A DNA stretch of 22,241 bases from positions 1 through 22,241 of IMG/VR virus record IMGVR_UViG_3300007960_004291; one strand, 5' to 3'. Both the position numbers and the translations under genes were made by a program. Shown piece after piece: positions 117 to 21,369 of the stretch. Positions within the stretch are counted from its first letter, which is position 1. Each line of letters starts with the position of its first letter. The notes below the pieces were generated by a model that searched no databases, was not told the origin of the DNA, and was given only the letters and a program-made list of their open reading frames with translations. Source of the stretch: a virus.

Positions 117-3100
117 TGACAATTCAGAAATACAACTACATTGAAACTATAAATCACCTAGTGCCCTCTCTGTACACGGACAGGGAGGCGTTGAATTTTG
201 GTGTAGGGGAAGAGTTAAGTTACAAAACTCTAGCTCATTATTTGAAGCTAGTCGAAAATGCCAGCTCGTTGTTTCAGTCGAGCGCAATAGGTAGTATTTC
301 TGAACTCCAGGCTAAATTTGTCCCGGCAAATAAATTAACACGGGTAACCTCAGATGTGTTCAATGATTATGTTTTAGCTCCTTTAGGCTATGACTGGAAA
401 GATTTTACTGCATCCTCCGAGCTTGTAACGTTCATGGAAGGTAGTGGTCTTAGCGCAACAATATTGAATTCTGATTATAGAACCAACCAAGCTTTCGCTT
501 TATGGTTCTCTGGAGACAACTCAAACGTTCCAGGTGTATCCTCTCTATACCCCGAAGTAAGTACTGTTGGGCTGGCGCATGATACACTTGTTGATAAGTT
601 GGGGCTTCTGCATCTTTTAAACAGTCCGGGTCCCTCTATTACATCTAAACATGCAGACCACGTTGAATTAAGTTCTTTAGCTTCGAGCCTGTGGTCTGAA
701 AACCTATACCAAGGAAAGACTGTTACGGAAAAGGATTGTCTTAATGTTCTTTACGAGTACATTTGGAAAAACAGAGAGTATAACTACCCCAACTTAAATG
801 CCAGCCGGTTTATGCCCGCTGAGTTCGTATCTTCCACCTCTCAAGTCTCAGGGGAGACATATTTGTCTGGAACGCAGTTACTTGATGCGTACAAGACTTC
901 ACTTGGCTTGTGGGTTGACGAGAATATGGATTCCTCACCTATGGTGAGGGATAGTTTAGAGGTTTTCACGTCCTCTACTTTAATTCCTACTAAGTTTGCC
1001 AATAGCGGCTCTCTTAGTAAATTCTTGCGTGCGCTAGGATACGCTACGTATGATATTCATCACGTAGTGGATTCTATCGGGGATTTGGTTGATATCGACA
1101 ACTGCCCTCCGGAGTTCTTGGATTACTTAGCGACTTTAATTGGGTGGAAATTAATCGGCAAGGATGTTACCGAGTGGAGACAGCAGCTAAGAAATGCGGT
1201 AACTGCTTACAAGATGAAAGGCACCACTTCCGGGTTGGATGCCGTCGTGGAGTATATTTTCGACCGTAATGTTTTCTTCCCGACAAGTGGTTTAACGGAG
1301 ACTTGGGAGTCGTACCTCCCTAACATGATTTATTATGTTCTTAAGACAGAATCTTTCATGACGTCCGCCACTCCAGGAGAAGTTAGGACATGGGTTTCTT
1401 TTTGGAGAAATACGGGAAGTGTAAAAATTAACCACGACCCGGACAATATAGACAATACTATTAGGTTTGCGGTTGACATGTTGCTTCAGTACTTGGACAA
1501 CACGCACAAACTTATCCACATTAAAGGTAGGCACTGGAAAGAAAGTGATATGTGGAAAGGGATAATTGACAACCCGAACTCACCGAACGGGTTCGCGCAT
1601 CGTGGAAAGATTGTCGAAGTCCCGCCGTGGGAAAATGATAGGTTTTATTCCGATTCATATATCACCTTGGACGCACTTGAGTCTCTTTCCTCGATTATGG
1701 TTAAATCTCCAGACCATGGTGGGTTAGGGGTTTCCCCTACTGCTTCGGAGTACATTACCAATTTCTGTAAAGATAATTTAGGATTAGACAAACTACCTCC
1801 AATGCCGGGGGACCGCCAACGGTTTAAGTTCCATACCTCTTCTTTGGCGGTGGCACCAAACACGAGTTCCCTGCCTTTACGTAGCAACGCTTTCGAAGAC
1901 GCTACTATTTTAAGCGATTATTGGAATAGGAAGTCTTCTACGATGATATTGGATATCAACGCTGAGGATGCCGACTTCGCGCAGAAAGGCAACACGAAAC
2001 TTAACTTAGAAAACCTTAGAATGCTTCATCAAGTATTCAGGGACTTTGTACCCCTTAGGGTTATGGTCCATTCTGTCATCACGAAAAACATGGCAGACGG
2101 TGGAGGAAGCGAACAGACAAATGATGGTATTTTTGATGGGTATGGTTGGGGTTCAGGAGGATTGCTCCCTTCCGCGACTTTCTGTCTCCAAGGGGATTTC
2201 TCCAAACAAGATGCTGCAACCAACATAGCAAACGATACCTTTACTTCCGGATTTTCTGGTTTGGCGGATGGCGGTGTAAGCGCAGGCACATACCAAGAAG
2301 GTCGATTTGTCCCCGACGTAAACTCAGACTTTTGGGCTGGTGTTGGAGTCGTTCCTAGCAGGAACGCGTCCAGAGCCAGAAACCTAAGATATAGTTTGCC
2401 GGGAAGGTTCTTTTCTAGAAATGGAAGAAACTCACCCCACACGATGGATTTCATGAATACGTATCTTTGGGGGAGTACCACAAACACCGCAGCTTCCGCA
2501 GGCTCTTTTAAAGTTCTTTCCAATGGGGATGGCGTAGGGTACGCTTTTAGTGCGCTAGAAAACTCAGTTTTCCAACCAAAAGGGTGGAACTTCTCCTCAC
2601 AAAGCTACTTCGACACCTCTTCCAGGGAGTTTGATACTTCTAACGCTGTGCGGGCTAACCGTACTGGTCATGCCCGACCAAGATGGATTTCTGCAGAGAC
2701 AGGGCTTCAGGCTTCCGCAGCATTCCCGTTTAGAGCCGCTGAAAGGTACTCCGTAAATTGTAGTGCTGTAGGTGCTGAGGAGAGACACAGGGTATTCGAA
2801 GTAAACCGCCAAATTATAGATATTATCCTCAAGGAGTTCGCTCGTTCAGGTGATAGGGCTGTTCTCAACTTCAATCATGAAGATATGTTGGATAGAAGTT
2901 TTGGAACAGGTGTAAACCAGCTTTACCGTAAATATAAAAATGAATTTATGAATAGGTTGGACGATACTGGGTTCAGTCTTTTATATCACACCTTTGGACC
3001 TTTCCTTATTGGTGGTGATGTTCCTGTAAGAAGCATAGCTATCGACGGAACATTGGACGACTCCCAATCTCACACTCCGGGGCGTGCCCCTGGTGTAGAT

Positions 3101-5030: not shown

Positions 5031-8000
5031 ATGAAAGGAGTTGTAGAAGTTTTTCAAGTTAAGGACGGGTGTTGGAGTAAGACATACGAAGACCACAACT
5101 TGGTAGTTCACGGAGGCAAGGTAGCCTGCGCGGATATTTTCACGCATCTACCTTTAGAGAAGGAAGACGGGACAACGCCTTTAGCAGGGTCCCCTGTACA
5201 GTCAGTCTCCAACTACACTATCCACTCGTTAACCTTAGGCGCTGGCTCCAGAACCTTAAATAAGAGAGATTCCCGACACGCAGTCGTTTACGAAAACGAT
5301 ATCGATGGTGCCGGAACTAAGCAATATTTAGATATCAGCGGTAGTTATTACAGCCTTCTTCCGTACAGGGAGAATTTTAATTTTACTCAGTTCGGTAAAA
5401 GAGGGCTTCAAAAAACATCTGCTAGAAAATCCACTGCAGAAGAATACAAAGGACCTACACTTCGAGATGCTAACCTTGTAAAACATTCAACTATTGAGGT
5501 TTCTAGAAGCAACGAAGATGGGGGTTCCCTGACGTGTACAAAGGTGCGAGGACAGGATTTCGTAGAAGTAATAGTTCCCGTAACTTTGGACCTCGCAACA
5601 AAATACAAGCTAAGTTTAGGTGTAGATGGAAAGTCTCCGGTAAAAGTTGAGCTTCTCCGAAGAGACAGGATATCGAGACGTAATGCTTTAGATGTAGATT
5701 TAAGAGACCATGTGTGGGATTTTACCCAAGCTGATTTTGTTGACGAACAATCCGTCGCAGATAAAAGTAGGCTAAGTAGAACTCTTCACGCCTCCGGGGT
5801 TATCTCAGGCGAACTACATGAGCTTTTTATAACAACGGGGTTTGACAGAATAGACCAAGGTAGTCGTGTCGAGTTGTTTGATTATTTTGTAAAAATAACA
5901 GCACCTCAAGAAACAGATTTTGAGAAAGGTCAAGTCCGTCTTCACAACTTCAAGCTAGAGGCATTAACCGATTATATTGTAACAAACCCTGATTTTAGTA
6001 AGGTTGAATCTTTAGTTGGTAATACTAGCTTCAAAGATTTAACCCCTTACGACCTGCGAGCTTACCCAGAGGGTCAAGGTAGCCCCGAGGACCTTAGGGT
6101 TATGGGTGTTTACCAAATTGGAGGGTTTGAACACTATTCTCCTCTGTACGCATCCGCTAACGCTCTGGACGAAAGTACCCAAACTAGTGCTTTATGGGGA
6201 TGGATTTCCGTAGACAATGTTGATGAATACGGAACCAACGGCAAGCCCCCTAAAGCAGTGGACGGCAACGAAACTAATATCGGGGTCTCTTTCAACTCCT
6301 GTTCACTTATTTTTAATAATTCAGGAACAGCGACTTTGAGTAAAAGATTCAAGTTTCCTAAAAAATGGACCGACTTCTATACCCAGACAGGTTCTAGGTT
6401 TGAACAGGGTTATTTAAATGACCCATACTCCAACAGAAGCCTTGTAATTAAGTTTGATTGTACTCCTGTTTCCTCTGTGAATGATAACGTCGCCGCTGGC
6501 GTAAAGATTCGTTGTACTAACGTAACCAGAGATTTAAAGTATAATTTTGTTTCTGGAGATTTATATGAATCCAAATCGTGGGGGGGAAGCGGAACGGAAC
6601 AGCTGCTAGGTGCTGGGCTGGGCATGGGTACAACCACCACGCTACAGGCAAACATTATGATGCCTCTGGAATTCTATAATGATGAGTTCAAGTTGGACAT
6701 TATTGGTCATGCGGGTGATTCCGAAGGGGACCGTGGAAAGTTAACAATTAGGAATTTAGATATTGGTCAGCTTGAAGGATGGCATATCAATGAAGGGTAT
6801 GCGTCAGGAGTTGTTGTATCTTCTTGTGCTGGAACCCCCGTGTCTGGTGTGCGCATTATAACAGACGTGGGGCAAAATCCTCCGTCTGACTGGTACAACC
6901 TGTCTTCCATAAATAGAAACACGTTCCTGTCCCAGACGATAACTGGGGTAGACCCTAAGAAAATATATAACCTAATAGTTGAAGGTAAGAGCAACACAGG
7001 AAATGGAAAGGTAGGAGTCGCATTAATACACAAAGGCTATTCAAACCCGTACAAGACAAACCATGCCAAGTATCTTACTATAGGAAAATCGTATAACGCG
7101 GGCAACGCTTACCAAAACTATTTTAATCCTGATACGGCTGTCTCCGGTTTCGGGTTTACTATGCCAGGACCTAAAGGACCCCCAAGTGATGAACTATCCG
7201 ACTGGGACTACCAAGAGCATCAAAAATGTGTAAAGTGGCAGCTTCAAAATACGGACTCTCCTTTGTATAAATTTGTAGAGACTGCCACCTCCTCACAAGG
7301 GATATTCAATCAGTATGTAAACTTGCCAAATGGCAGGTATAACTTCTCCATGGATTTGAGGCATTTACAAGATACCTCCAATCCATACACCTACTACTCT
7401 CCAGTTAAGGTGGCGATGAAAATCGCAGCTAACAACCCGTCAGCCGCGGTTCAGTCTTTTTGGTATAATTTCCAAACTAGAAAGTGGGATAATGTCCCCG
7501 ACTCGGATGGGTTTAATAACAAGCCTGAGTACGGAAAAACTATCTTAGGGGGCTCCCACGCGGACACGATGGACCCCGGACGAGACTTCCACAACCTAGC
7601 CAAGTCGACCATCGAAATCGCTGAGCTTAAAGGGGACGCTGAAGGATGGCAGTCCGCTTCAGTAGCCTTTGATATTCGGGAGTCCGATTTTGGAGCTGCC
7701 GCTGCCCGCCAAGAGAACTATCCGGAAGGACACGTCCTCCACCCTGCTTGGAGTACTAGACCAGTAGAGTTTTGGTTCTATGTAGATGAAACCGTTGCGG
7801 TCCCTTCTAACACTTTTGTAAAGGATGGGGTAACCGATGGCGTAGACCCTCTAGGAACTGTATACATTAAAAATGCCAAAATAGACGGTCCTCCAACACC
7901 GAGGGAGCAAATGAACACTTACTTCGTATATGAAGGTGATGGCACCTGGACCGCTACATCGTCTCTCTCTTCGGTAGAAGCACTCAACGATGCCTCAGGA

Positions 8001-9719
8001 CCTATGTCCGGGCATAGACCAATACGTGATGTTAGTGCCGGGGCTTCGACTTGGAACGAGATAGGGTCTGGGTTTGGTTTCACGATTGATTTAGATGACG
8101 AGCAGCATGTTCTCCCTGTTTTCGGGATGGACAGAATCCACAACGAAGCCCTCCCGTATGGAAATCAAACCCTGTTCAATGATACTATAGCTTCTTCTAT
8201 GTACTCGGCGGAGAAGGAGAGTATTTATGAGCTTATGCTTTTCCACCTTAACGGGAGCGATGTTGAAGTACACAACGTCACTTTTGCTGATGCCACAACT
8301 GCGTACTATGACGGTCCTTCGTCGTATGAGAGAAATAAACTAACGTCTGAACCTTTTATTGAGCCTGTTTATCTCGCGAATCCAGGGGGTTGGTCTTTAG
8401 ACTTCAAACACCACTATACCGGAACTGCACGGTCCACAAGACCTGTGAGCGCGGTGATGTATGTTAGCGGAGGACAAGACACTTCTGACTATCTAAAGCT
8501 TACAAAAGTAGGGGCTGTGAACAAAGCAAACTACCACACGACGTATTCGAACTATGTCGATACCGTAGAGAATTTTGGTATGAAAGGTGGTAACCGGTAC
8601 GCGTTCGCGTTCGACTATGCGACCAATAACGGTACGATTTCAGAGGGTGTATTTTTACAGCACGGGGATAGGATTCTCTGGCTTTCTGGTACAGGCAGCA
8701 ACACTCAATGGGTTGAGGCTAACCCTTACAAAGATACAGGGGATATGACCACCGCTGCGTTCAGGAGCCTAGGTACATTCCTTCCGGCAAACTCCGCGAG
8801 CAGAAAACAACTCTCAAGAGACGTTACCACTCCGGAGTTTGTACTTCCTACAAATGTCCCGGAGGATGCGCTTCTAGGGTTAAAAATACGAGAGAGACCC
8901 GATGGCAGTCCCTTCGATTCCTTAAAGAAGAATTTTAGGGCTTACCAAGTTATAGGCGGAGTCCAGGTGAGTTCTGTAATGCCCGACTTCCCCGAGGAGA
9001 AAGATTTCTCCGTACAGCCCTATACAGACGCAAGCACTCCTGGCGAGCTCGGACATTTCCAAAACATGATTGAGTTCTTCCCGTCAGGCACAGACTGGGA
9101 TTACGATGCCAGCACTACTGAACATATTCCAACATATGAAAAAGCGGTAAGTCTGGGAGCGTATTTGCCAGGGAGTGGTATTGTATTTTCTGCCGGAACG
9201 TTCGGGTATAACGGAGCCGAGGCTTCTAAATGGAACGCTAACGTGTCCAGCATATCAGGAACACTTAACCAGTATAGCACCATTACCCCGAAAGGTCACA
9301 TCCTAAGACACCCAACTGCCACTACTGTATTGGATAGTAGTGCGGGCTTAGTTGTGTCTGGACCGTGTCATGAAAGTACGGGAGCTGTTGATGCGTGGGA
9401 CGGTAGAATTGTAAAATATATCCTAACACTAACAAAAGAAGAGGTGGAGTATCTTACTTATTACGGTGGGGGTATAGAATCCGCAGGTCTGTGGACTATA
9501 GATTATACTAACTCTGCCAAAAAACAAGATTATAAGTATGGCGGACCTCCGTTCTTGGTGTCAGGAACTGGCGTACCCTACTCCACAAGTCTATATAACT
9601 TGAAAGACTATGAAGAGCCTGACTGGAGATTATTCGCAAAGAAAGTATTTTTAGCTGGAGGGTTAAAAATGAACGCAGATTCTGAATTTTTGACTATAAT
9701 ATGGAGCTTGAAGTTTTAA
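5031..9719 (+). CDS. Giant baseplate/tail-fibre structural protein built on a split fibre-type fold with repeated beta-sandwich-like modules
   Basis: A 1562-residue virion protein. Its first ~75 residues and last ~25 match the ends of the 206-residue neighbour encoded just downstream. The N-terminus has KGVVEVFQVKDG, then HNLVVHGG (22-29) and a LTLGAG strand-turn (67-72). The C-terminus has DSEFLTIIWSLKF, the variant of the K-T-x-x-F-x-L-x-x-x-W-x-I-x-F ending common in fibre-associated proteins. Between them lie about 1,350 residues of beta-rich sequence in several units. One begins N-P-D-F near 319; another includes YNFSMDLRH and YNFQTRKWD (812-820), matching the wedge protein. Such units resemble carbohydrate-binding or jelly-roll domains, but no specific family is claimed. 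The start at 5031 is supported by alignment with the 206-residue paralogue. There is no upstream Shine-Dalgarno; an AAGGAG lies just inside the coding region instead. Likely role: peripheral baseplate or fibre part. Confidence 0.75.
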   Translation: MKGVVEVFQVKDGCWSKTYEDHNLVVHGGKVACADIFTHLPLEKEDGTTPLAGSPVQSVSNYTIHSLTLGAGSRTLNKRDSRHAVVYENDIDGAGTKQYLDISGSYYSLLPYRENFNFTQFGKRGLQKTSARKSTAEEYKGPTLRDANLVKHSTIEVSRSNEDGGSLTCTKVRGQDFVEVIVPVTLDLATKYKLSLGVDGKSPVKVELLRRDRISRRNALDVDLRDHVWDFTQADFVDEQSVADKSRLSRTLHASGVISGELHELFITTGFDRIDQGSRVELFDYFVKITAPQETDFEKGQVRLHNFKLEALTDYIVTNPDFSKVESLVGNTSFKDLTPYDLRAYPEGQGSPEDLRVMGVYQIGGFEHYSPLYASANALDESTQTSALWGWISVDNVDEYGTNGKPPKAVDGNETNIGVSFNSCSLIFNNSGTATLSKRFKFPKKWTDFYTQTGSRFEQGYLNDPYSNRSLVIKFDCTPVSSVNDNVAAGVKIRCTNVTRDLKYNFVSGDLYESKSWGGSGTEQLLGAGLGMGTTTTLQANIMMPLEFYNDEFKLDIIGHAGDSEGDRGKLTIRNLDIGQLEGWHINEGYASGVVVSSCAGTPVSGVRIITDVGQNPPSDWYNLSSINRNTFLSQTITGVDPKKIYNLIVEGKSNTGNGKVGVALIHKGYSNPYKTNHAKYLTIGKSYNAGNAYQNYFNPDTAVSGFGFTMPGPKGPPSDELSDWDYQEHQKCVKWQLQNTDSPLYKFVETATSSQGIFNQYVNLPNGRYNFSMDLRHLQDTSNPYTYYSPVKVAMKIAANNPSAAVQSFWYNFQTRKWDNVPDSDGFNNKPEYGKTILGGSHADTMDPGRDFHNLAKSTIEIAELKGDAEGWQSASVAFDIRESDFGAAAARQENYPEGHVLHPAWSTRPVEFWFYVDETVAVPSNTFVKDGVTDGVDPLGTVYIKNAKIDGPPTPREQMNTYFVYEGDGTWTATSSLSSVEALNDASGPMSGHRPIRDVSAGASTWNEIGSGFGFTIDLDDEQHVLPVFGMDRIHNEALPYGNQTLFNDTIASSMYSAEKESIYELMLFHLNGSDVEVHNVTFADATTAYYDGPSSYERNKLTSEPFIEPVYLANPGGWSLDFKHHYTGTARSTRPVSAVMYVSGGQDTSDYLKLTKVGAVNKANYHTTYSNYVDTVENFGMKGGNRYAFAFDYATNNGTISEGVFLQHGDRILWLSGTGSNTQWVEANPYKDTGDMTTAAFRSLGTFLPANSASRKQLSRDVTTPEFVLPTNVPEDALLGLKIRERPDGSPFDSLKKNFRAYQVIGGVQVSSVMPDFPEEKDFSVQPYTDASTPGELGHFQNMIEFFPSGTDWDYDASTTEHIPTYEKAVSLGAYLPGSGIVFSAGTFGYNGAEASKWNANVSSISGTLNQYSTITPKGHILRHPTATTVLDSSAGLVVSGPCHESTGAVDAWDGRIVKYILTLTKEEVEYLTYYGGGIESAGLWTIDYTNSAKKQDYKYGGPPFLVSGTGVPYSTSLYNLKDYEEPDWRLFAKKVFLAGGLKMNADSEFLTIIWSLKF

Positions 9720-9720
9720 A

Positions 9721-10341
9721 ATGAGATTTTCCGATTTGAACAGTATTAAAGGACACCTTGAAGTTTATAAGGTGTTTAAGGATGGAACTGAAGAGTTACA
9801 CTACAGCGAGAAAAACGTTATCACTAGTGGCATGGGTGTTACCTTGGCTCACGCTTTCGCTGCAGATGCGGGTTCCGACGTAAGCTCTTTTCAAGCGAAT
9901 TGGATGCAGATTGGCACTGGCGCTTCTACAGTCGCAATTAGGGCAGCTGAGGATGTACAAACTTCATCGCGGGCTGACCTGTTATCTGCCATCCCTGGTT
10001 CTCAGTATGGGGACGTAAACACTATCGGTCTTCACGTGTCTGCGCTTACGTATATGACCTCTGCAGGAACTACTGCGACCAGTAATTTTGTTAAGATTCC
10101 TCCTGCGTTTGTCCACCGGATATCAGACCGCAAAGTAATGTGGCGACTTATTTTAAACGACAGCGCATGTAATATTCCAGATACGGCTAGTGGGGGAGCG
10201 TTGTGCGAGGTGGCTATATTCTCGAATAATCCTCGACAACAAACTCCTCAAGAACTATACATGATTGCATATCGAGCTTTTGCTAATATTGTTAAAACAA
10301 ACGAATTCACCTTGGACTTCAGGTGGACTATTGAATTCTAA
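9721..10341 (+). CDS. Small tail-fibre/baseplate-periphery protein with the classic F-x-L-x-F-x-W-x-I-x-F ending
   Basis: A 206-residue protein with the architecture of small fibre-associated phage proteins. An opening beta-strand (GHLEVYKVFKDG) is followed by NVITSGMG (32-39), a MQIGTGAS strand-turn (62-69), a middle with F-V-K-I-P-P-A-F and W-R-L-I-L-N-D, a G-G-A-L-C-E-V-A-I-F strand, and the ending KTNEFTLDFRWTIEF (192-206). Proteins of this type usually sit at the tip of a baseplate arm or fibre, or connect fibres to it. It is a compact version of the 1562-residue protein just upstream, whose two ends align with its two ends. The gap to the upstream stop is one base; its own stop overlaps the next ATG (TAATG). 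The fold assignment is from motifs; the precise virion position is unknown. Confidence 0.7.
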   Translation: MRFSDLNSIKGHLEVYKVFKDGTEELHYSEKNVITSGMGVTLAHAFAADAGSDVSSFQANWMQIGTGASTVAIRAAEDVQTSSRADLLSAIPGSQYGDVNTIGLHVSALTYMTSAGTTATSNFVKIPPAFVHRISDRKVMWRLILNDSACNIPDTASGGALCEVAIFSNNPRQQTPQELYMIAYRAFANIVKTNEFTLDFRWTIEF

Positions 10342-13300
10342 TGGCTTACAGAAACTTCACATCACTTACAGCAGGGACTTCAACTCATACTGAAGATTTC
10401 CCAAGCATCACTATGTTTGATGCGAGTACGTTCTACAATTGGGAACAAGACAACATTCCTCTGCAACAACTAAAGCAAAGAACGGATACTCTTCTTCGTC
10501 ATGCGGGGTATAACGAAACCGAGAAGCCAACGGGGACTGTAACATATACTCTGTCTAGCTCGGAGGATGCCACGTACGGGATTTATTCCGACATGGGTAA
10601 AATCCTTGACCTTATTCCAAAAAGATTAACCTACCCTATCCTGGTCGAAGTTTGTAAGTACGGTGCTTTAGGCGCGTTTGATTTGGCTGGAATCACCACA
10701 GAAGGTGACGGAAAATTAGAAATCAGAAATAGACTTTTTGCCAAAGGTGCTAGTTCTGTGGTTGCAGGCGTGTCCTCTGTGGCTGCTGGCGCAGAAGGTG
10801 CTAGCAACCTAATAAGCCACGTTGGAGATTCATCCAACACCGATTTTTGGGATTCTCTTACAGGCGTTCAGTCTACTAGATTCTCCCATAACATTTATGA
10901 TTTAGCGCAATGGAATACCAGCGGCTCTAGAGCTTTCCACCAAAGAGGTCCTGATTTAGAAGACGAATCTTTAAATCTATCTGTTTGGGTTGAGGGTGTT
11001 TCCGCTGGGGCTACAAATGCTCTCGGAGTATCCGGTTTCCCCTATGCCAGTGTGCATGACCAGTCAATTGCCACTGCGGACCCCTCTCCTTCTGGTATGA
11101 GCAATAGAAGGACATATTTGGGAGCTGCTAGAGGAGCCGATACTACTAGCCACGTCGCCGCCGGATGCGCGTACGGAAATGTCGCCCATGGAATTACAGT
11201 TAGAGGTTGCCACGGAGATATTAAATTAACTGGCTTCTGTGTTGATGGCTCTAATTATGCGGTCGGCGCTACTTTAAGGCATGTCCGAACTAACGGTATT
11301 GAGGTTGTAGACTCTGATGTTATTTTGGAAAATTGCGCCTCGATGAGGTGTTCTAAAGCTGGAGTATACGTTAAAAACTCAAGCGTTAGCTTTGCCAGTG
11401 GTTTAATTTGCTACCGCAACTATGAGCATGATGGTGGTACTACTGCTAGAGTTACCAGCCACGATAATTATGGAGTTGGGCTTCATGCGGTAAACTCTGA
11501 AGTTTTCTTCGCATCTGTAGACGAAAGCTCCGACGCACTAACCAATGCAGCTCAGCCAAATGAAAAGAGAAACCTTTATAACTTCCATAAAAATGAAATT
11601 GGAATTTTGTTAGAATCTTCCAAACTGCATGGCGGAACTTTATGGCAAGAGACTAATGCGAGCCACCCGAGGAGTCGCGGTGTAGGTTCTGATTATGTAA
11701 CTTCTTTCCTTCAAGTTTACGGCAATAAGACAGGTATGAAGTTGGAAGGTTCTCAAGCGACGTGGTTGGGTATTTTCGACTCGTTCTTAAACCATAACTA
11801 TGGAGTCGACGCTGCAAACTCCACCTTGAACCTCACTCAGTTTACTGTAGAGGATAACGGTTTAACCGGATTTAAATTAGATAACTCTAAACTAGTTTAC
11901 GGTTATTTTGGCGACAAATTAGGTGGGGATACTAATGGTCATTATGGTGATAGCTCTGTAAGTTTTAAACGCTCGTACACCTGCTCTCGCAATGGTCAAA
12001 ACTTGGTGGTTGATAACGGCAGTCGTGTAGTGCCATATCAATGCAACGATGTTAGAACCAACTTAGGGGTATGGGGTGGAGCTGGAGCCAGCATCGCTGG
12101 AGGTAGCAAATCCGAGCTATTCGATTACATGTTCTCTGTGGGAGCCCAAAACGGAACCGGCGCAGATGTCGATGCTTTTGACCTGCCTGCCATTGTAGTA
12201 AAGAATGGCTCTTTCGCTGAGTTTATAGGTTTAGCTTGTGCCGCACAAACTCGATATGCCGCAATTAAAGGGGCATGCGTATCGGTAACTGATAACTCGA
12301 AAGTTGTGTTCAGAGGCACCAGTAAAAGTCGCACTGCTTTAACATGTGTACCTCAAAACGACATGGCTACTGAAGAGTTAGGTCATAGCTGGTATACTGC
12401 TGGAGTTTACGCTGGTAGGAATTCGGTGGTAGAGTTTACCGGACCTACTAAGATTTCAAGGTTCGGCGTGCCAGTTCTTGCTGAAGATGGCTCCACTGCT
12501 TTGTTTGGTCCTCCGACTGTTGAAGGTAGTGAAGTTAAAATGGATATTGACAGATTTAGTTGTAGCTCCGTTCCTGGGGACACTACAAACGATGCGGAGC
12601 ATACTGCCGTGGAAATCCATTCTACCCGCGCTGGCTTAGTGGCAAACAGAAATTCAAACATTAGAATGTTCCACTTGGGAGGCTGGTGCTCAGAGGAGCT
12701 TAGGACTTCTAACTTTTCTACTGATGGGGCTTTCAATTCTAACCACCCAAGGAACCTAGACACTTCACTTTCGTCCTGCACCTCAGGAGGTTCTTTTAGG
12801 TTCTTCCCGAACGGATTCACGAGCGCTTTAGCAACAGAAATTCCCGTAAGGCTAACCTCTGTAGGCAACCACGAGCGCAATGCGGCATTGGCTAACGGGG
12901 TCTCAAACGCAGAAAAAAGGACTAATCTTTCCACTGGAGGCATGTGCGTTCGGGCTGTAGGAAATAGCAACATTGATGTAAATGGTGTTAACTTTGTATT
13001 CGCAGGGGACGCATCTAGTACGTCAGGAGTCTTTTATGACTACTTAGGTACTGACAGGACCGGGCTGGCTGACGCCTACACTGCTAATGGTGGGTCTTGG
13101 TGGAATAACACTGCTCCTACTACTTTAGCATCCCACACTAAATCTGGTTACATGATGGATGCTTCTGCCTTTACTACGTCCTCTATTACGAAGAGTCAGT
13201 TTTTCACTGAGGCGCACAATACGGCGACCAACCCTTTATATAACGCGAGCTCATGGGTCCCGAACATGAACGAGTCCATAAACTCTATTGTTACGGACAA

Positions 13301-14174
13301 GAATCCAATTGTAAACAATGCGTACGCGTCTAACTTAATGATGTGGAACGTGGCAGACACATCCCGAATCCATGTTGCGAACTGCAAACTCAATGGAACT
13401 GACCCAGAGACTGAATGCGCCGCTAAAGGATATCACGGTCCAAGAGGCAAGTGGGCTAACGGTGTCGCGCTAGACTACTACGGAGAAGGCGGACTTGCGA
13501 CTACGTACAATCCTAAATTAAGAACTACAAATGTTGCTAGAGGTCACGAAAACTATGGCATCTTCAGGTTGCTATTAGGTCACCGTGGTCAGTTAAAGTC
13601 TCTAACTGATGTTAGTGCAGGTCCAGGTACTGGAGTAGTAGCTCCAGGATTCCAGTTTGGTGCTGCGATAGACCAAATCAACTCTGCTGGTTACCAAACA
13701 TGGGCTGGTCAAGCTATATGCTTGTCTGCGGCGGATGAGTTCTTAAAATCCGCAGGTCTAGAAGGTGGCACGTATGCCGCGAACTTAGGTGCTGTGTCCG
13801 GAGCTGAAGATGTTTTTGGTCAAGGATGGGCTGCTTCCGCACTTACCCACCCCGCAGGGATACAAGGTTTAATTAGTTCGTATACCGACTCCGAAGGAAA
13901 TGTTAGGACTAATGTTCCGAGTATGCCAATACCTCCATTACATATGGATTGGCAGGGCTATATGAGAAACTTCTTAGATGAGTCAGGTGCTAGTCTATTT
14001 ACCAATGCAAAGCATGCAGCAAACAAGAAAGTTAATGCGGTTTCAATCTACCATTCAACCTCAAATGCTTTCTCTACTGGAGGCGAAGGTCGAGACGCGG
14101 GTGAGGTCGCAACTGCCACGTATGGAGTGGGATGCCGCTCGCTAAACCTGTTTGATTTAGATAGGACATTATAA
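10341..14174 (+). CDS. Parallel beta-helix tail spike / fibre protein with the shared D-N-x-P-L anchor
   Basis: A 1277-residue protein whose N-terminus carries the anchor motif YNWEQDNIPLQQL (D37, N38, P40, L41), shared with the next two proteins and probably used to dock on the baseplate. From about residue 284 (HGITVRG) to about 1030 the sequence is a long series of short rungs of the form hydrophobic-x-N/D-x-S-x-hydrophobic, as in VYVKNSSVSF, AVNSEVFFAS, LDNSKLVYGY and VTDNSKVVF. This is the look of a right-handed parallel beta-helix (pectin-lyase-like fold), the usual body of tail spikes that bind or cleave surface polysaccharide. No catalytic acidic cluster can be assigned by eye, so binding versus depolymerase activity is open. 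The last ~240 residues are Gly/Ala-rich and could form a trimerisation or tip region. Start and stop each overlap the neighbours by one base (TAATG). The host-recognition role is inference. Confidence 0.72.
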   Translation: MAYRNFTSLTAGTSTHTEDFPSITMFDASTFYNWEQDNIPLQQLKQRTDTLLRHAGYNETEKPTGTVTYTLSSSEDATYGIYSDMGKILDLIPKRLTYPILVEVCKYGALGAFDLAGITTEGDGKLEIRNRLFAKGASSVVAGVSSVAAGAEGASNLISHVGDSSNTDFWDSLTGVQSTRFSHNIYDLAQWNTSGSRAFHQRGPDLEDESLNLSVWVEGVSAGATNALGVSGFPYASVHDQSIATADPSPSGMSNRRTYLGAARGADTTSHVAAGCAYGNVAHGITVRGCHGDIKLTGFCVDGSNYAVGATLRHVRTNGIEVVDSDVILENCASMRCSKAGVYVKNSSVSFASGLICYRNYEHDGGTTARVTSHDNYGVGLHAVNSEVFFASVDESSDALTNAAQPNEKRNLYNFHKNEIGILLESSKLHGGTLWQETNASHPRSRGVGSDYVTSFLQVYGNKTGMKLEGSQATWLGIFDSFLNHNYGVDAANSTLNLTQFTVEDNGLTGFKLDNSKLVYGYFGDKLGGDTNGHYGDSSVSFKRSYTCSRNGQNLVVDNGSRVVPYQCNDVRTNLGVWGGAGASIAGGSKSELFDYMFSVGAQNGTGADVDAFDLPAIVVKNGSFAEFIGLACAAQTRYAAIKGACVSVTDNSKVVFRGTSKSRTALTCVPQNDMATEELGHSWYTAGVYAGRNSVVEFTGPTKISRFGVPVLAEDGSTALFGPPTVEGSEVKMDIDRFSCSSVPGDTTNDAEHTAVEIHSTRAGLVANRNSNIRMFHLGGWCSEELRTSNFSTDGAFNSNHPRNLDTSLSSCTSGGSFRFFPNGFTSALATEIPVRLTSVGNHERNAALANGVSNAEKRTNLSTGGMCVRAVGNSNIDVNGVNFVFAGDASSTSGVFYDYLGTDRTGLADAYTANGGSWWNNTAPTTLASHTKSGYMMDASAFTTSSITKSQFFTEAHNTATNPLYNASSWVPNMNESINSIVTDKNPIVNNAYASNLMMWNVADTSRIHVANCKLNGTDPETECAAKGYHGPRGKWANGVALDYYGEGGLATTYNPKLRTTNVARGHENYGIFRLLLGHRGQLKSLTDVSAGPGTGVVAPGFQFGAAIDQINSAGYQTWAGQAICLSAADEFLKSAGLEGGTYAANLGAVSGAEDVFGQGWAASALTHPAGIQGLISSYTDSEGNVRTNVPSMPIPPLHMDWQGYMRNFLDESGASLFTNAKHAANKKVNAVSIYHSTSNAFSTGGEGRDAGEVATATYGVGCRSLNLFDLDRTL
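11363..13385 (+). repeat. Protein-level rung repeat of the beta-helix (x-N-S-x-h-x-h pattern)
   Basis: At least a dozen degenerate copies of a short unit occur in this part of the spike gene. Examples are KNSSVSF, VNSEVFF, ESSKLHG, EGSQATW, ANSTLNL, DNSKLVY, KNGSFAEF, DNSKVVF, RNSVVEF, RNSNIRMF, GNSNIDV and DTSRIHV. The copies are irregularly spaced, often some 20 to 50 residues apart. A polar N-S (or G-S, D-S) turn followed by alternating hydrophobic residues is typical of successive coils of a parallel beta-helix. The repeat is visible in protein only; the DNA copies have diverged. Confidence 0.65.
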
Positions 14175-16078
14175 TGGCAAGAGAACGAATTAATCCAAAT
14201 ATTAGATATTACCTTCCGGGGGACCCCTACTACTATGAAGTAGATAATCTCCCTTTGAAGGATTTACAAGCTAACGATATGTCTCTACAAGAGCAAATCG
14301 ATAACTTAAACACAAGAATAGATAATGTTTTAGATTCGCCTGACCGAGGTGTTTTCACTGAGCTTCTTCCGTATCTCAGCACATCTAGAGATGGGGTGTT
14401 GCGGGTAAAAGATGGTAATTTTATTGCGAGGGTAAACACTAAAGCAGATTTCGAAAATGGCTTGATGGAAAGAAAGTTTGGTTCTGACGCAGACTCGGTT
14501 ACCGTTTCTCTGGAGGACCCAGGCGCAGCCGATATGGCTAGAACTTTAGACGCAGGTCGAACCGGAGCTGAACAATTCGAAGCAAAGTCTTCCGCGAGGA
14601 ATTCTGTGATTGAATATTTGGATGTTCATGAAATTGAAATTCCAACGTTTGATGATAAAGATTTTACCGATAGTGATGCTCCCGACTTCAGGGTCGATTT
14701 GTTGTACATCCAAGCTTCTCCTGGAATGGATGAAACGAACGAGAGAGTACAAAGGTTTGGAAACGTAGAAGACACCGCGAGACTTGGATATGTAAGAGGC
14801 GGGTATTTTAGAGTAGACACCACCTTCCCTGACAGAAACGAAGGTTCCATTTTAAGCTTCGATGGTCTTGATGGTAAGGTTGTAGGCTTGTCTCAAGTAG
14901 ATGTTGTCGGTAGAGCTGCGGGAACTATTCCAGCACCAGACGACATTGTAAACAAATCCCACAAAGATGCCACTACTCCCGCAGGCGCAGTATCTCACAC
15001 TCCGGGTATTTCGACATTGCCTTTGGATGTGTGGGCTGAACAACAACTAGACAACCTTGGGGTTTTCTGTCTCCCTGTTGCGTATATTAGGGTTCCAAGA
15101 GGGTACGTCGCAGGTACTCCCCTTCCTCAAGATAATCTAATCGACATTAGACCGTTCTTCCGTTCTGCTGAACTAACGTTGTCTGAGAGACAAGCGATTG
15201 CCACAGCTCATGCGCCTAGTCTGAGTAATCGTTTTATGACGGTTACCGACCCGGATTATATGCACCTTAAGAATGTTACGGTAAAAGGTTTAGGTACCGC
15301 TGAACAACAAGACCATGAAGGCAGAATCCAAAGTCTGGAAGCTAAAATGCGAGAGCAAGCAGATGTGGAGATATTCCAACCGGTAAATATTGCGTGTATG
15401 GAAGGTCAAGAAACAAAGCCTTTTTACTTAAACCGAGATGAAACCGACGCTGATAAACTATCTGGATTCCGCGACTTTCTTCCTGCTGGCGGAAATGGAA
15501 ACGTCCGTAGAAACAACGAGACCTACAAAAAAACAGTAAGAGCTGTTCGATATAAAGCAGGTCCTGGGCAATGGATGTTGTATACTCAAATATCATTCTT
15601 TATTGCCGACGAAACGAAACCCGCAGCGAGAGGAGCGATTGGAACTGCCACTAATGTACGTGAAGGTGCCGAGTCCAACAATCCTGGAATAGCTATGCCT
15701 TCCGGGTACTACAGACTTAACATATCGGAATTAGGTTATACCGGAGCCGGTGTGGATTCTATTCTTGCCACTCCTCATATGGAAGAGAAGTGGGGTGGGG
15801 ATGCCTGGGCTTTCGACATTATGAGACATTCGGACTATGTCGAGGAGGGAGGCACATCCCTCAATCCTGGGTTTATTGATTTTGATTTTGGATGTAAAGA
15901 CACTTATAAAAGGACGAAGCTTAAAGGTTATCCTGGCTGGAACTTCTGGAGAGGCAATAAGTGGGGTACAGTCGTAGACCAAGAAGGAAGCCTTCGAGTA
16001 AATCTGACCTTGGTAGGTCTTTCCACTACTCCGGACTTGTACTCTGGGGCTGAACTTGCTACCGATGTAGTTTATTAA
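14174..16078 (+). CDS. Fibre/baseplate protein with D-N-x-P-L anchor and DIRP module; tandem paralogue of the next gene
   Basis: A 634-residue structural protein. N-terminal anchor: YYYEVDNLPLKDL (D24, N25, P27, L28), followed by a predicted helix LQEQIDNLNTRIDNVL that could be a short trimeric coiled coil. The middle, about 80-345, contains DFRVDLLYIQ, GTIPAPDDIVN, LPVAYIRVPRG and, at 324, DIRPFFRSAELT followed by SERQAIA. Next comes a short helical segment H-E-G-R-I-Q-S-L-E-A at 381-390. A C-terminal tip domain from about 400 includes ISFFIAD and ISELGYTGAGVDSIL. All these blocks recur in the same order in the 898-residue protein downstream, so the pair arose by duplication. The start overlaps the upstream stop (TAATG), with a weak AGGA just before it. 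The stop is one base before the next ATG. Probable role: baseplate-attached fibre or spike; no enzymatic motif is seen. Confidence 0.68.
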   Translation: MARERINPNIRYYLPGDPYYYEVDNLPLKDLQANDMSLQEQIDNLNTRIDNVLDSPDRGVFTELLPYLSTSRDGVLRVKDGNFIARVNTKADFENGLMERKFGSDADSVTVSLEDPGAADMARTLDAGRTGAEQFEAKSSARNSVIEYLDVHEIEIPTFDDKDFTDSDAPDFRVDLLYIQASPGMDETNERVQRFGNVEDTARLGYVRGGYFRVDTTFPDRNEGSILSFDGLDGKVVGLSQVDVVGRAAGTIPAPDDIVNKSHKDATTPAGAVSHTPGISTLPLDVWAEQQLDNLGVFCLPVAYIRVPRGYVAGTPLPQDNLIDIRPFFRSAELTLSERQAIATAHAPSLSNRFMTVTDPDYMHLKNVTVKGLGTAEQQDHEGRIQSLEAKMREQADVEIFQPVNIACMEGQETKPFYLNRDETDADKLSGFRDFLPAGGNGNVRRNNETYKKTVRAVRYKAGPGQWMLYTQISFFIADETKPAARGAIGTATNVREGAESNNPGIAMPSGYYRLNISELGYTGAGVDSILATPHMEEKWGGDAWAFDIMRHSDYVEEGGTSLNPGFIDFDFGCKDTYKRTKLKGYPGWNFWRGNKWGTVVDQEGSLRVNLTLVGLSTTPDLYSGAELATDVVY

Positions 16079-16079
16079 T

Positions 16080-18776
16080 ATGTCTAAGAGGGTAAAAAAT
16101 GTTAAAATGCACGGACCTATCGGTGCGTACGAATACCTTAGCGATAATTCCCCTTTAGAGGAGCTCTCTGAGAATGATATTCTGCTGCAAAAGCAAGTAG
16201 ATTTATTATATAAAAAACTACAAGAGAACGCTTCGGTAGACTTTAAAAGGGAGGAGTTTACACCCCTCAAGCCATACACAACATTTAGTAGCGAGAATAC
16301 TTTATTCGTAAAGCCCGGTTCTTTTTTATGTAGAATACCTACAAAGTCGGGACCTTTCGTAGGTAAAACCTTAGGTTCTGGAATTAACTCGGCTGAGGGA
16401 GGAACTGAGGCTTCAAGGCATGACGCTGACCTTTTAGAAGAGAATGAGTTTCATAATATGGGAGAATCTCAAAGAACCGCTACTGTCTTTTTTAAAGGTG
16501 GAAGCGTTTCTTTTGATAGATGGAGCGATGCCGATTTTAACTACGCTATATCCGACACGTTGGAGTATACCCCAGACCCGCCTGACTACAGGCTAGATTT
16601 GGTGTGTGTTCAAGGGTTTCCTGCGGATGACCAGTTCGGCAAGCACGATACCGTGTTGGGCGCTCAAGATACCCCCTGGTTAACCGTAGTTAAAGGAGCA
16701 GGGTTCAGAAACTCGCCAACGTTCGATGAGAACGATGAACCAGTACCTCTAAACCAATGGTTTAACGGTAAATTTAAAGACCAGGACCCGAGGATTACTT
16801 ATTCATCAGAGGACACTGGCGTATCTAAGTTCGTAGCCGAGCCTCTTATCGATTCCCCAGGATTAACATCCGCTAAAACTTATGGAATGGGGCAGACATC
16901 TGTGGCGAGTATTTCCCCTGAAAGGGAGTACGGCACAGTCCCCGCTCCTGATGATATTTTAAATTCGTCTTTCAAAATAGTCCCCGGTTTAACTGAGGGA
17001 TTCGAAGCCTTTGTGTCCAGCACCTCAGAACTCGCAGACAAAAACACAGATGGCTCCAATCAAGTAGGCGTGTTTACGATTCCTATTGCGTATGTAAAAA
17101 TACCAAGAGGTTTTGATGGGGGACGAATTCAAAGTTCTTGGGTTAAGGATATCAGACCTTTGTTTAGGTCTGCTGAGCTTACGGTTTCAGAGAGGCAAGC
17201 GATAGCTAACAGTTACCAAGCTCAAGCGTCTAATAGAATCCTAACTGTTTTAGACTCCGACTACCAAGAACTAGTTAATTATATTTTACAAGAAGACCAG
17301 TGGAATGTGTTTGACCTTAGGGGAGGTCAGCGGGATATCAGTCTTGGTAACCATGAAGGTAGGCTTAAGGCTATGGAAGCCGCTATTGCCAGACCAAAAC
17401 TTCAAGCTGCTCCTAGAACTAGCTTTAAGGATGCATACCCTTCCAACCAACTGAGACCTTCATACCCTGCCAACAAATATCAATTACCTGTATGGACTTT
17501 GATGTGGGGTGCAGGACCAAAGACTTGGCAAACCCAGCATGACGGTACTGGGATGAATTACCATAATGGGCTTTACTACTCGCCGGGTCAATACATTCCC
17601 TGTGTGAGGAACTATCTGGACCGGTTTTACCATGATAGACAAAACCCGACTGTTCTTGCCGACAATTTGAACAGCAATAAACCTGCTAGAGTTTACGGAG
17701 CCGAGCCAACTTTAACTCGTAGGGTTGTTGTGCGGAAACCTTTCCTGTCCTACGCTACTGACAAATGGTATGGTTTCGATTACGAAGGAGGAGACCCGAC
17801 TGAATATCCTGCCAGAAGTTACCGCTTCGATAACCAGAGACCAATCTCCGCGAAATGCTATTGGCCGGATTCCCCGGCTAAATGGGACGACACGATGACT
17901 CCTCCCGACAATAGGTATAAATTCCAACATATAGAGTTGGATTTTATATTCCCAGATTTCGACCCAGACCGAGATGAGGTAACGGAATGTAGCGAAGTTT
18001 GGACTGAGTCTTGTAGTAGAGGTAGAGGTTGGTCTGGCTTTGGGCATGGGGGTTCAACTACCTGTAGCGGTAGATGGGTCACCAAATGTAATACCTATGG
18101 GGGTGATAAAACTCCTCAAGCGGAACTTCCTCATTGGAATATTCCTTTAGGGTGGGTTCCTTATTTTGTGGATGTGGACGCCTTAGGCTTCGTTCCAGGC
18201 AGCATTGATTCTTTAATAATCGAAGTAAGCAACGCAGGGTGCGGTGCTGAAGACTGGGGTACCTTTGTTTATTACAGGTTTAACCAAAGAGGTCCTAGAT
18301 GGAATGGTATTAACGACCCCGATGAAGGTTTAAATGGCACTATCGAGTTGCCAGACGTAAACCCTCAATATTTATCTTTGGACGAACGTAAGGGGGTTCC
18401 TGAGTTTGGGACGGTAGGTAATTTTAAGTACGGTTCAGTGGGGGAAACCCAAACGTGGACTTCTAGAGCTTGGGACGGCCGGAGGATTAGAGATTGGAGT
18501 TATAGAGCCAACCATGTATCCACAGGGTATAGCGGGTTTTGTATAATGGTAAATATGCCTATCGACAGAACATGGAATAGGCGCACAAGCTCCAGCTTCT
18601 TCGGACTCTTTTCTAGCATCCATTACACGTTTACTAGAGACCAAGGGTACCGGGAGAAACGCTGTAAAATTAAAATTTCCGGTCCGGCGCATAGATACTA
18701 TAACGGGGCGTTCCTCCCAACTGAAGGAAATTCAGATGCAGGAGACTCCGTCCAAGGACAATCATGGATAGATTAA
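16080..18776 (+). CDS. Longer paralogue of the 634-residue fibre protein, with a four-cysteine Gly-rich insertion in its tip
   Basis: An 898-residue structural protein. Anchor: YEYLSDNSPLEEL (D22, N23, P25, L26) with a following helix. Blocks shared with the preceding protein are DYRLDLVCVQ, GTVPAPDDILN, IPIAYVKIPRG, DIRPLFRSAELT (357) followed by SERQAIA, and HEGRLKAMEA (425-434). The tip domain holds LDFIFPD and V-D-A-L-G-F-V-P-G-S-I-D-S-L, equivalent to ISFFIAD and ISELGYTGAGVDSI of the shorter protein. Between these two strands it carries an extra loop with C637, C645, C662 and C670 in two CSxxWxxxC units joined by a Gly/Ser-rich linker. After the shared tip it continues about 180 residues further (NHVSTGYSGFCIMVN and beyond) with no counterpart in the paralogue. 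Its end overlaps the next gene by 13 bases. A fibre or receptor-contact role is inference. Confidence 0.68.
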   Translation: MSKRVKNVKMHGPIGAYEYLSDNSPLEELSENDILLQKQVDLLYKKLQENASVDFKREEFTPLKPYTTFSSENTLFVKPGSFLCRIPTKSGPFVGKTLGSGINSAEGGTEASRHDADLLEENEFHNMGESQRTATVFFKGGSVSFDRWSDADFNYAISDTLEYTPDPPDYRLDLVCVQGFPADDQFGKHDTVLGAQDTPWLTVVKGAGFRNSPTFDENDEPVPLNQWFNGKFKDQDPRITYSSEDTGVSKFVAEPLIDSPGLTSAKTYGMGQTSVASISPEREYGTVPAPDDILNSSFKIVPGLTEGFEAFVSSTSELADKNTDGSNQVGVFTIPIAYVKIPRGFDGGRIQSSWVKDIRPLFRSAELTVSERQAIANSYQAQASNRILTVLDSDYQELVNYILQEDQWNVFDLRGGQRDISLGNHEGRLKAMEAAIARPKLQAAPRTSFKDAYPSNQLRPSYPANKYQLPVWTLMWGAGPKTWQTQHDGTGMNYHNGLYYSPGQYIPCVRNYLDRFYHDRQNPTVLADNLNSNKPARVYGAEPTLTRRVVVRKPFLSYATDKWYGFDYEGGDPTEYPARSYRFDNQRPISAKCYWPDSPAKWDDTMTPPDNRYKFQHIELDFIFPDFDPDRDEVTECSEVWTESCSRGRGWSGFGHGGSTTCSGRWVTKCNTYGGDKTPQAELPHWNIPLGWVPYFVDVDALGFVPGSIDSLIIEVSNAGCGAEDWGTFVYYRFNQRGPRWNGINDPDEGLNGTIELPDVNPQYLSLDERKGVPEFGTVGNFKYGSVGETQTWTSRAWDGRRIRDWSYRANHVSTGYSGFCIMVNMPIDRTWNRRTSSSFFGLFSSIHYTFTRDQGYREKRCKIKISGPAHRYYNGAFLPTEGNSDAGDSVQGQSWID
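17988..18089 (+). repeat. Paired CSxxWxxxC motif in the tip of the 898-residue protein
   Basis: Two nine-residue units, CSEVWTESC (637-645) and CSGRWVTKC (662-670), flank a 16-residue linker rich in Gly and Ser (GRGWSGFGHGG). Cysteine, serine and tryptophan are kept at the same places in both, which suggests internal duplication. The four cysteines could bind a metal ion or form two disulphides after release from the cell. Neither can be decided from sequence alone. Confidence 0.7.
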
Positions 18777-19783: not shown

Positions 19784-20764
19784 ATGGGTGACAAGTCAAT
19801 CATGCAAATGGCAGACGACATCCTAGGAGGAGCCTTAACGAATACTCCTAAGATGAATGAAGCCAAACAGCAGCGCGCTGAAGAGGAACTTCCTGAAGTT
19901 TCTCCTGAACAGCATGATGTTCTGATGAGTCACATTCTGGGTGAAGGTAAAGCTGCCGATGCTGCTAAGAAAGTAGCTAGAGGAGTAAAGAAAGGAGTAA
20001 AGAAAGTAGGCAAGGTGGTTAAGAGACTTGTTACGCCTTTGACAGATGAGGACGCTGACAAAGCGGGAGTACCTAGAAGAGGTGAGCGCTACCTTGGACC
20101 TCGTAACCCTAAACTACAGAAAGACCATATGGAACACCTATCTAAAGACCAAATCGAAATCCTACAACAAGCTAAAGACATTTTAGGTGAGATGACCGGT
20201 GTAGGCAGTATCGGCGTTAACATGGCTGGAGGCGAGAAGCAAAGCTCTCACCACCCCGCTATGCAAGTTAAGCTGCCTGGAGATAAGGACCAAGCGAAGC
20301 AAATTAAAGCCGCGTCCACTCCTCCTGTATACAAAGCCGAAGCCGCGAAAGGTCCTTCTCAGCCTGCTAACACGAAAAAGCGCGTCATCGTTAAAAGAAA
20401 GTCGGCTCAATCTAAAGACGACGAAACTCAAACGAGAGTACACAACGATATGAGAGCCATGTACCATGAATCTTTCGATTCCTTTGTTGACGGTATACTT
20501 CTAAAGGAAAACGAAAGGAAAGGGTACGCAGGCGACGTTAGCGTTGCTGATTTCGGTAGAAAAGGTCCTGCCAGCGACACGTTCGGTGGTGGAGGTGTTA
20601 AGACCCAAGGCACCGGTCCTAAAATTCAGCTTACTAGCAATCAACTAATGACTGCTAATAAAAAAGCAAAAGCAAAAGGACAAGACAAAGGTGAGAACGC
20701 ATTTGGTAATGCTTCCTCACATTCTCGTAAACACCCCCAAAACCCGTACGCTGGAAGCAAGTGA
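19784..20764 (+). CDS. Head core / scaffold-associated protein with a Lys-rich helix and candidate protease sites (gp68-like by position)
   Basis: A 326-residue protein. Residues 60-81 form a Lys/Arg-rich helix (KKVARGVKKGVKKVGKVVKR) that could bind DNA or the acidic neighbour. The C-terminal half is hydrophilic, rich in Lys, Gly, Ser and Gln, and probably disordered. Four related short motifs recur: DILGG (12-16), HILGE (50-54), DILGE (132-136) and GILLKE (237-242). The ILGE and LKE sites fit the (L/I)-x-E cleavage rule of T4-type prohead proteases, so the protein may be cut into peptides during maturation. The start has an AGGAG at 19771-19775 with good spacing. The stop TGA overlaps the GTG start of the protease gene (GTGA). 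By order it corresponds to T4 gp68 (141 residues), but no sequence homology is claimed. Confidence 0.6.
   Translation: MGDKSIMQMADDILGGALTNTPKMNEAKQQRAEEELPEVSPEQHDVLMSHILGEGKAADAAKKVARGVKKGVKKVGKVVKRLVTPLTDEDADKAGVPRRGERYLGPRNPKLQKDHMEHLSKDQIEILQQAKDILGEMTGVGSIGVNMAGGEKQSSHHPAMQVKLPGDKDQAKQIKAASTPPVYKAEAAKGPSQPANTKKRVIVKRKSAQSKDDETQTRVHNDMRAMYHESFDSFVDGILLKENERKGYAGDVSVADFGRKGPASDTFGGGGVKTQGTGPKIQLTSNQLMTANKKAKAKGQDKGENAFGNASSHSRKHPQNPYAGSK
19982..20005 (+). repeat. Perfect 12-bp tandem duplication (GGAGTAAAGAAA twice)
   Basis: Two identical adjacent 12-base units within the basic-helix part of the 326-residue gene encode GVKK twice (residues 67-74). The identity at every base, including third positions, points to a recent slippage duplication that lengthened a Lys-rich helix in frame. 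Confidence 0.9.
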
Positions 20765-21369
20765 GTAACCTACTAAGAGAATTCAACTCCTTCGGAGAAG
20801 TCCAAATCCTCAATGAAGGCAGAGGCGATAAGCCTATGAAGATTCGTGGGCTGTTTTCTGAGGCTGAGAAAGTAAACGGAAATAAAAGAGTTTACAGTAA
20901 AAAGCTTCTAGAAAGAGAGTGTAACAAGTTAGCTACCATGATTGCTGAGCGCAGATTGGTAGGCGAGCTGGACCACCCGTCTAGTGAAGTTGTTTCTTTA
21001 TCTAACGCTTCCCATCTTATTACTGGGCTAACCTTTGAAGGTAACCAAATTATTGGCGAAGCGGAAGTGCTAAACACTCCCTCCGGTAAAGTTCTACAAG
21101 AACTTCTTAAATCAGGGGTTCAAGTAGGCATCTCTTCCAGAGCAACTGGAAGCCTAGAGCAGGATATGCATGAAGATTGCTATCGTGTTCAAGACAATTT
21201 AAAAATGATTACTTGGGATATGGTATCAGACCCTTCTTGCCAAGGTGCTTTCCCGGCTCTACAAGAGGGGATGCTAAATGAAAAGCGTGACCCGATTGTT
21301 GAGGAGCTAGACCACCACAAGCAAGAAAGAATTTATATCACCGCCCTTAAGAATAGTTTGAGAAAATAA
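20761..21369 (+). CDS. 21: Prohead core maturation protease (T4 gp21 family)
   Basis: A 202-residue serine protease, close to T4 gp21 (212 residues), that cleaves the scaffold, core proteins and capsid protein inside the prohead and then itself. Family landmarks are visible: MKIRGLFSEAEKVNGNKRVY (26-45), the GELDHPSS block with His72, SNASHLITGL with His85, the V-L-N-T-P-S-G-K segment at 103-110, and the serine motif VGISSR with Ser125/Ser126. The H-P and G-x-S-S-R blocks are the usual candidates for the catalytic His and Ser of this herpesvirus-assemblin-like fold. WDMVSDPS (152-159) follows. The start is GTG, overlapping the upstream TGA, with GGAAG just before it; a later ATG (residue 26) would remove little of the core, but the GTG start has the better ribosome site. 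A C-terminal ALQEG fits an autocleavage site. The scaffold and capsid genes follow in T4 order. Confidence 0.92.
   Translation: MSNLLREFNSFGEVQILNEGRGDKPMKIRGLFSEAEKVNGNKRVYSKKLLERECNKLATMIAERRLVGELDHPSSEVVSLSNASHLITGLTFEGNQIIGEAEVLNTPSGKVLQELLKSGVQVGISSRATGSLEQDMHEDCYRVQDNLKMITWDMVSDPSCQGAFPALQEGMLNEKRDPIVEELDHHKQERIYITALKNSLRK

Follow-up and report, generated by a model that had tools for sequence, protein, structure and literature searches.

A short N-terminal module common to neighbouring spike-like and DIRP-family proteins in the baseplate gene cluster of an uncultured phage

Three neighbouring genes with a common start

The window examined here is a DNA fragment of 22,241 bases from an uncultured marine phage in IMG/VR (IMGVR_UViG_3300007960_004291), with all of its main genes on the plus strand, and our subject is a short N-terminal module shared by three consecutive genes on that strand. 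The module is about 40 residues long, follows the pattern Yxxx-x-DNxPLxxL and continues into a predicted helix. In protein 1 (P0001, 1277 residues, 10341..14174), profile alignments and controls place it at about residues 20-55 (10398..10505), with the core YNWEQDNIPLQQL at residues 32-44 (10434-10472). Protein 2 (P0002, 634 residues, 14174..16078) carries it at about residues 9-43 (14198..14302), with the core YYYEVDNLPLKDL at residues 19-31 (14228-14266). The most diverged of the three copies is found in protein 3 (P0003, 898 residues, 16080..18776), at about residues 7-45 (16098..16214), with the core YEYLSDNSPLEEL at residues 17-29 (16128-16166). A sequence-only reading of the window had aligned these three starts, and they are indeed present at the positions it quoted. 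The range it gave for the genes, 10341-16203, ends too early: the third gene reaches 18776, and position 16203 is still inside its first 42 codons.

Behind the module, protein 1 has nothing in common with the other two. According to its open reading frame (ORF) and predicted model, it represents a family, here called B, that combines the module with a beta-helix spike body. The model of residues 1-700 is a right-handed beta-helix with a predicted template modelling score (pTM) of 0.80, and its best matches in the PDB are the phage tailspikes phi297 gp61 and LKA1 gp49, with low TM-scores because the body is long and curved. Proteins 2 and 3 belong to a second family, A, named DIRP. They are alike over about 440 residues (30% identity, E 1e-44) and are therefore tandem paralogues with differing C-terminal bodies, that of protein 3 being the longer. 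In protein 2, the ORF and its conservation profile delimit the module, a conserved platform up to about residue 400 and a variable C-terminal part. Thus, the beta-helix anticipated for protein 1 agrees with the model, and the DIRP module anticipated for the other two is real but understates how far they resemble each other. Both models show the expected helix behind the motif, at residues 41-54 of protein 1 and 26-52 of protein 2, though they predict it with modest confidence. Apart from its start, this helix and a small beta domain, the protein 2 model is poor; Foldseek and VIA-align found no fold match for it, the model being too weak for a verdict. The variable body of protein 3 also contains, at about residues 635-672 (window ~17980-18100), a cysteine-containing insert, ECSEVWTESCSRG...TTCSGRWVTKCNTYGG.

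Homology and distribution of the module

Pairwise BLAST gives only a weak match of protein 1 to protein 2 (E 0.06). Profile-profile alignment of the starts of the two families gave a probability of 98% and an E-value of 1.2e-14 over 42 columns, and the E-value was still 4.5e-9 when the eight core columns were masked. A reversed profile, used as control, gave E 0.02. The profile score of 66 compares with a mean of 9.3 (standard deviation 2.2, maximum 19) in 200 column shuffles. As judged from these sequence profiles, the modules of the protein-1 type and the DIRP type are homologous beyond chance.

For the distribution of the motif, families of relatives were defined without it, the protein-1 type by its body and the DIRP type by DIRP. 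The DNA pattern DIRPxFRxAEL gave at least 119 loci, and counts drawn from these loci are lower bounds. Among the matches listed, 58 of 61 protein-1-type and 98 of 99 DIRP-type proteins have the motif, the exceptions being degenerate versions, and DNxP[LI] stands at about residues 24-64 in nearly all DIRP proteins with a complete N-terminus. Only four of 624 other ORFs match the motif, and each of them belongs to these two families as a duplicate or an unlisted paralogue. An A2 profile, built from 21 module starts and run over 23 whole contigs of 29-131 kilobases, matched solely in one to three adjacent genes of these families, and in 20 further contigs the module was limited to one or two genes.

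The gene 5' of the DIRP gene usually encodes a relative of protein 1 with 1000-1450 residues that bears SSFYNWEQDNLPLYDLEERT or a similar sequence, and the order of protein-1 type followed by DIRP type occurs in at least 76 loci. Extra copies were seen in three loci: the window and locus L001 each have two DIRP genes, and L032 has two protein-1-type genes. In the tree, proteins 2 and 3 group with the L001 pair (support 93/81), and a separate duplication appears in L088. Just 5' of the DIRP gene of another locus (L037, 1-1292), we observed a long ORF of low-complexity Thr/Leu repeats (TLTTLTTTPTT...).

Conservation is distributed differently along the bodies of the two families. Among the matches listed, the part of the DIRP proteins up to DIRP forms a single homology group of 87, and the C-terminal parts split into 21 groups, of which the biggest has 55 members. 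Conservation in this family peaks at residues 1-40 and 321-360 and drops to about 1 bit beyond. The C-terminal part of protein 1, on the other hand, is present in 63 ORFs among the matches listed.

Neither family received a Pfam or PHROG assignment in profile scans, and sequence searches against solved structures returned nothing credible for the module or its proteins. Proteins 1, 2 and 3 at full length, together with two relatives, had no match in a collection of 50,697 phage records. The variant pattern VDNQPL gave zero matches, and a scan with degenerate peptides from the DIRP alignment recovered only a known relative, owing to the peptides chosen. The string VDNRPL was not found in the literature searched. 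The module itself appears undescribed, although the principle is already known.

Carriers in other lineages and the baseplate context

A fuller form of the module reads RYYxxxDPYYxEVDNxPLxxLxxN and runs into a short helix ahead of a separate body. Searching a collection of isolates with a 60-residue module query identified gp199 of Salmonella phage Arash and proteins of three Vibrio phages; with the A2 profile, Arash (E 2e-8) and Vibrio phage D69 (E 6.5e-9) each had one match per genome. Arash gp199 and its D69 homologue have the same N-terminal module (RYYxxxDPYYxxVDNRPLxx), whereas the body of gp199 comprises only about 265 residues, in which no similarity to either the beta-helix or the DIRP bodies was recognised. 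In purified Arash particles, gp199 was found by liquid chromatography-mass spectrometry with 70% coverage, 9 unique peptides and 245 spectra (PMC10585845). For gp199, a carrier of the module is thus a proven virion protein.

A second pattern, DP[YF]xxxVDNRPL, added 38 loci, in which the core is present by construction and the flanks are not. The DIRP-type profile picks up carriers found in this way with E-values down to 1e-14. As open frames, carriers span 139 to 1568 residues. One of them is a plain tail fibre that contains collar-fibre repeats (phrog_910, E 4e-42) and has a Peptidase_S74 chaperone (E 5e-11) at its C-terminus. Another locus (L168, 5118-5522 and 6179-6664) encodes two close-set module proteins of 134 and 161 residues that contain barely more than the module.

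Two near-identical contigs, G028 and G031, have carriers that were found by the profile and selected by no pattern. They share a stretch of 3,564 bases (99.1% identity) that reaches to codon 42 of the carrier gene, the point at which the profile match ends as well. Beyond this breakpoint the bodies differ, with 149 and 225 residues, and from the carrier stop codon onward the identity is again 98%. One of the two contigs has an additional gene for a beta-helix spike of 511 residues (Pect-lyase_RHGA_epim, just under the cut-off). As far as a single case read from sequence can tell, this is the pattern expected of an attachment module with an exchangeable body.

In the window, the module genes follow a gene for a wedge-type protein of 1635 residues (116..5023) with a Tail_P2_I domain at residues 302-381 (Pfam PF09684, 26.5 bits against a cut-off of 20.6), which marks the cluster as baseplate. 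Between this gene and that of a 206-residue protein lies a gene for a probable baseplate-peripheral protein of 1562 residues (5031..9719). The 206-residue protein (9721..10341) resembles phrog_5417 (E 4.7e-7), and its gene is directly 5' of the protein 1 gene, with overlapping stop and start. The 206- and 1562-residue proteins seem to share their N-terminal start (GxLEVYK...NVITSGMG and GVVEVFQ...NLVVHGG), a likeness that was seen by eye and that the profile of the 206-residue family did not reach. In relatives, this family occurs as sets of one to three neighbouring genes of very different lengths, a second case of a shared start with different bodies. Further downstream, a 148-residue ORF (18764-19210) overlaps the end of protein 3; its start resembles that of a lipoprotein (LLLSSC), it contains a glycine-rich stretch, and it lies amid virion genes. 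A T4-type prohead protease is encoded at 20761..21369 (PF03420, E 1.9e-21; phrog_207, E 1.5e-46), and its nearest isolates are mostly T4-like cyanophages at less than 45% identity. Going by this protease, the virion of the window phage is T4-like.

A 130,604-base contig from the single-cell genome of Prochlorococcus sp. AG-409-P03 (QCKN01000003.1; L064/L128) belongs to the same phage group and matches an IMG/VR record of the group over the 1,134 bases compared. Its gene order is hub-like, gp25, gp6-type wedge, Tail_P2_I, phrog_5417-like genes, protein-1 type and DIRP type, followed by protease, gp23 capsid and sheath-like genes. The co-sorted contig suggests, without proving it, that Prochlorococcus is the host. 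Since psbA was not found in the contigs of the group, including this one, the single-cell contig is the sole pointer to a cyanobacterial host. A separate lineage shows the arrangement Phage_base_V, PAAR, gp25, Baseplate_J, Tail_P2_I, phrog_5417 type and module protein. At locus L175 (9810-12371), likewise outside the lineage of the window, the wedge-type Tail_P2_I protein encoded 5' of the module gene is fused to a C-terminal Kelch beta-propeller.

Among the matches listed, a phrog_5417-type gene lies directly 5' of protein 1 in 53 of 61 relatives. Homologues of phrog_5417 are present in 18 of 23 module-bearing records, even if distant from the module gene; in Arash, unlike in the window, the gp199 gene does not adjoin the phrog_5417 homologue. 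Three of nine comparison phages also have a homologue (phage G, LR756511 and, marginally, Mel-JY01), while T4, phiKZ, P-RSM6, Cr30, RaK2 and KVP40 have neither the homologue nor a credible module. No module was recognised in phage G and LR756511, which weakens the idea that phrog_5417 is the socket. The 206-residue protein is a candidate partner and nothing beyond that.

Attachment to the virion, rival explanations and known systems

The homology of the starts, their exclusivity to a few genes, the baseplate context, the proven virion protein, the unrelated bodies and the one swap lead us to consider it likely that the shared N-terminus is a virion-attachment module, or plug, of baseplate fibres and spikes. 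Trimers of the module proteins would dock through the module at the periphery of the baseplate, at a site adjoining the Tail_P2_I wedge protein and perhaps on the phrog_5417-type protein. The bodies would reach outward and could be swapped behind a fixed module, with proteins 2 and 3 forming a conserved platform with a variable tip and protein 1 a beta-helix spike. The trimeric state, direct docking, the identity of the socket, the stoichiometry and receptor binding by the bodies are what we infer here.

Several observations weigh against this reading. Even in distant relatives, the protein-1 type remains conserved as far as its C-terminus, which is not typical of a host-range tip. Some carriers (134-161 residues) are too small for ordinary spikes, and the DIRP-family model, obtained for protein 2, is poor (mean predicted local distance difference test score 50). 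Moreover, the two module types never mix: for none of 108 modules was the nearest neighbour in the other type. Within one genome, protein-1-type and DIRP-type modules are 29% identical, as compared to identities of 68% and 61% within the respective types. Two types kept apart for so long speak against one interchangeable socket and are easier to reconcile with a stack or with two sites that are related but distinct. The sequence-only reading had proposed a common attachment module with interchangeable distal parts and a single type of socket. Its first part is borne out by the bodies, the virion protein, the location and the one swap, and there is good support for a module that attaches exchangeable fibres and spikes to the virion; the single socket type is not supported.

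In a stack, such as those of T4 gp10-gp12 or of branched tailspikes, one protein would sit on the baseplate and the next would dock on the first through a related module. The fixed order of B before A in at least 76 loci, the existence of two distinct module types and the known precedents all suit such an arrangement. No branching domain like that of T4 gp10 was recognised in these proteins with Pfam or PHROGs, however, and some contigs carry a single module gene, so that we regard a stack as somewhat unlikely.

The module could also be a trimerisation or folding nucleus that sets the chain register and starts the helix, with attachment located elsewhere. The helix follows the motif directly in both models, and the N-terminal triple-stranded segments of known spikes anchor and trimerise alike (PMC8825819). 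Against this, the flanks outside the core are conserved too, as seen with the masked core (E 4.5e-9), and if trimerisation were its only role, the module should appear in more of the fibres of each genome instead of in one to three mostly adjacent genes beside baseplate genes. We therefore judge this explanation unlikely.

A universal socket, for which the three proteins compete or which they share, is likewise unlikely. It would account for the presence of the module in all three, for the paralogous modules of proteins 2 and 3 and for recurring duplications, but it conflicts with two old module types that differ to this extent in the same genome without mixing. Finally, cleavage of the N-terminus as a propeptide by the T4-type prohead protease can be rejected as highly improbable: among the matches listed, 67 of 99 A and 39 of 60 B proteins have a [LI]xE site no more than 16 residues away from DN, yet one third of the members, proteins 1 and 2 of the window among them, lack it, and the genes concerned are tail genes.

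Fibres and spikes decide host range, and they are among the phage genes that are hardest to recognise because their bodies change quickly. A short conserved module that marks them across unrelated lineages would offer a way to find by sequence the host-recognition proteins of many uncultured marine phages, a large group for which no isolate turned up among 50,697 phage records, and it would allow a docking model to be put to the test in phage Arash, which is an isolate. A tentative extension is that the DPYY-VDNxPL module might be a portable plug of otherwise unrelated contractile-tailed phages, with phrog_5417 as its general socket; sequence would then be enough to recognise such proteins in uncultured phages, fibres and spikes alike. 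The lineages concerned would be Arashvirus-like phages, phages with S74-chaperone fibres and T4-like marine phages, among them the one from a Prochlorococcus single cell.

In T4, genes 9 and 10 come after genes 6-8, and the module genes are likewise located 3' of gp25/gp6/gp7-type wedge genes. The T4 proteins gp9 and gp10 differ from each other, yet both are trimers at the baseplate periphery and their N-terminal parts are homologous (23% identity over 200 residues); gp9 docks on gp7 via its N-terminal domain (PMC3004832). The window proteins resemble them in having homologous N-termini on different, probably baseplate-peripheral proteins, whereas the module has only about 40 residues and its motif is unrelated in sequence. 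PF07880 (T4_gp9_10_N) had no match at E<=1 in 23 related contigs, nor among the window proteins, which places the module outside the T4 gp9/gp10 N-terminal family.

In the branched tailspikes of CBA120, G7C and RaK2, conserved N-termini (anchor, XD domains and peptides) assemble several exchangeable spikes, and for some second spikes, docking through a conserved short peptide has been proposed (PMC8825819, PMC10253068, PMC6872550). Here, the module is common to several neighbouring proteins, not an anchor on one of them; XD domains had no Pfam or PHROG match in these proteins, the DIRP-family model being poor. With the beta-helix tailspikes phi297 gp61, LKA1 gp49 and K1 lyase, protein 1 shares the predicted right-handed beta-helix. 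It differs from them in its sequence (about 10% identity), with conserved positions that are mostly Gly, Asn and Ser in turns, and no catalytic site was recognised among the conserved residues listed. The kind of system is known from T4 gp9/gp10 and from branched tailspikes, and what appears to be new is this module, which occurs in several phage lineages.

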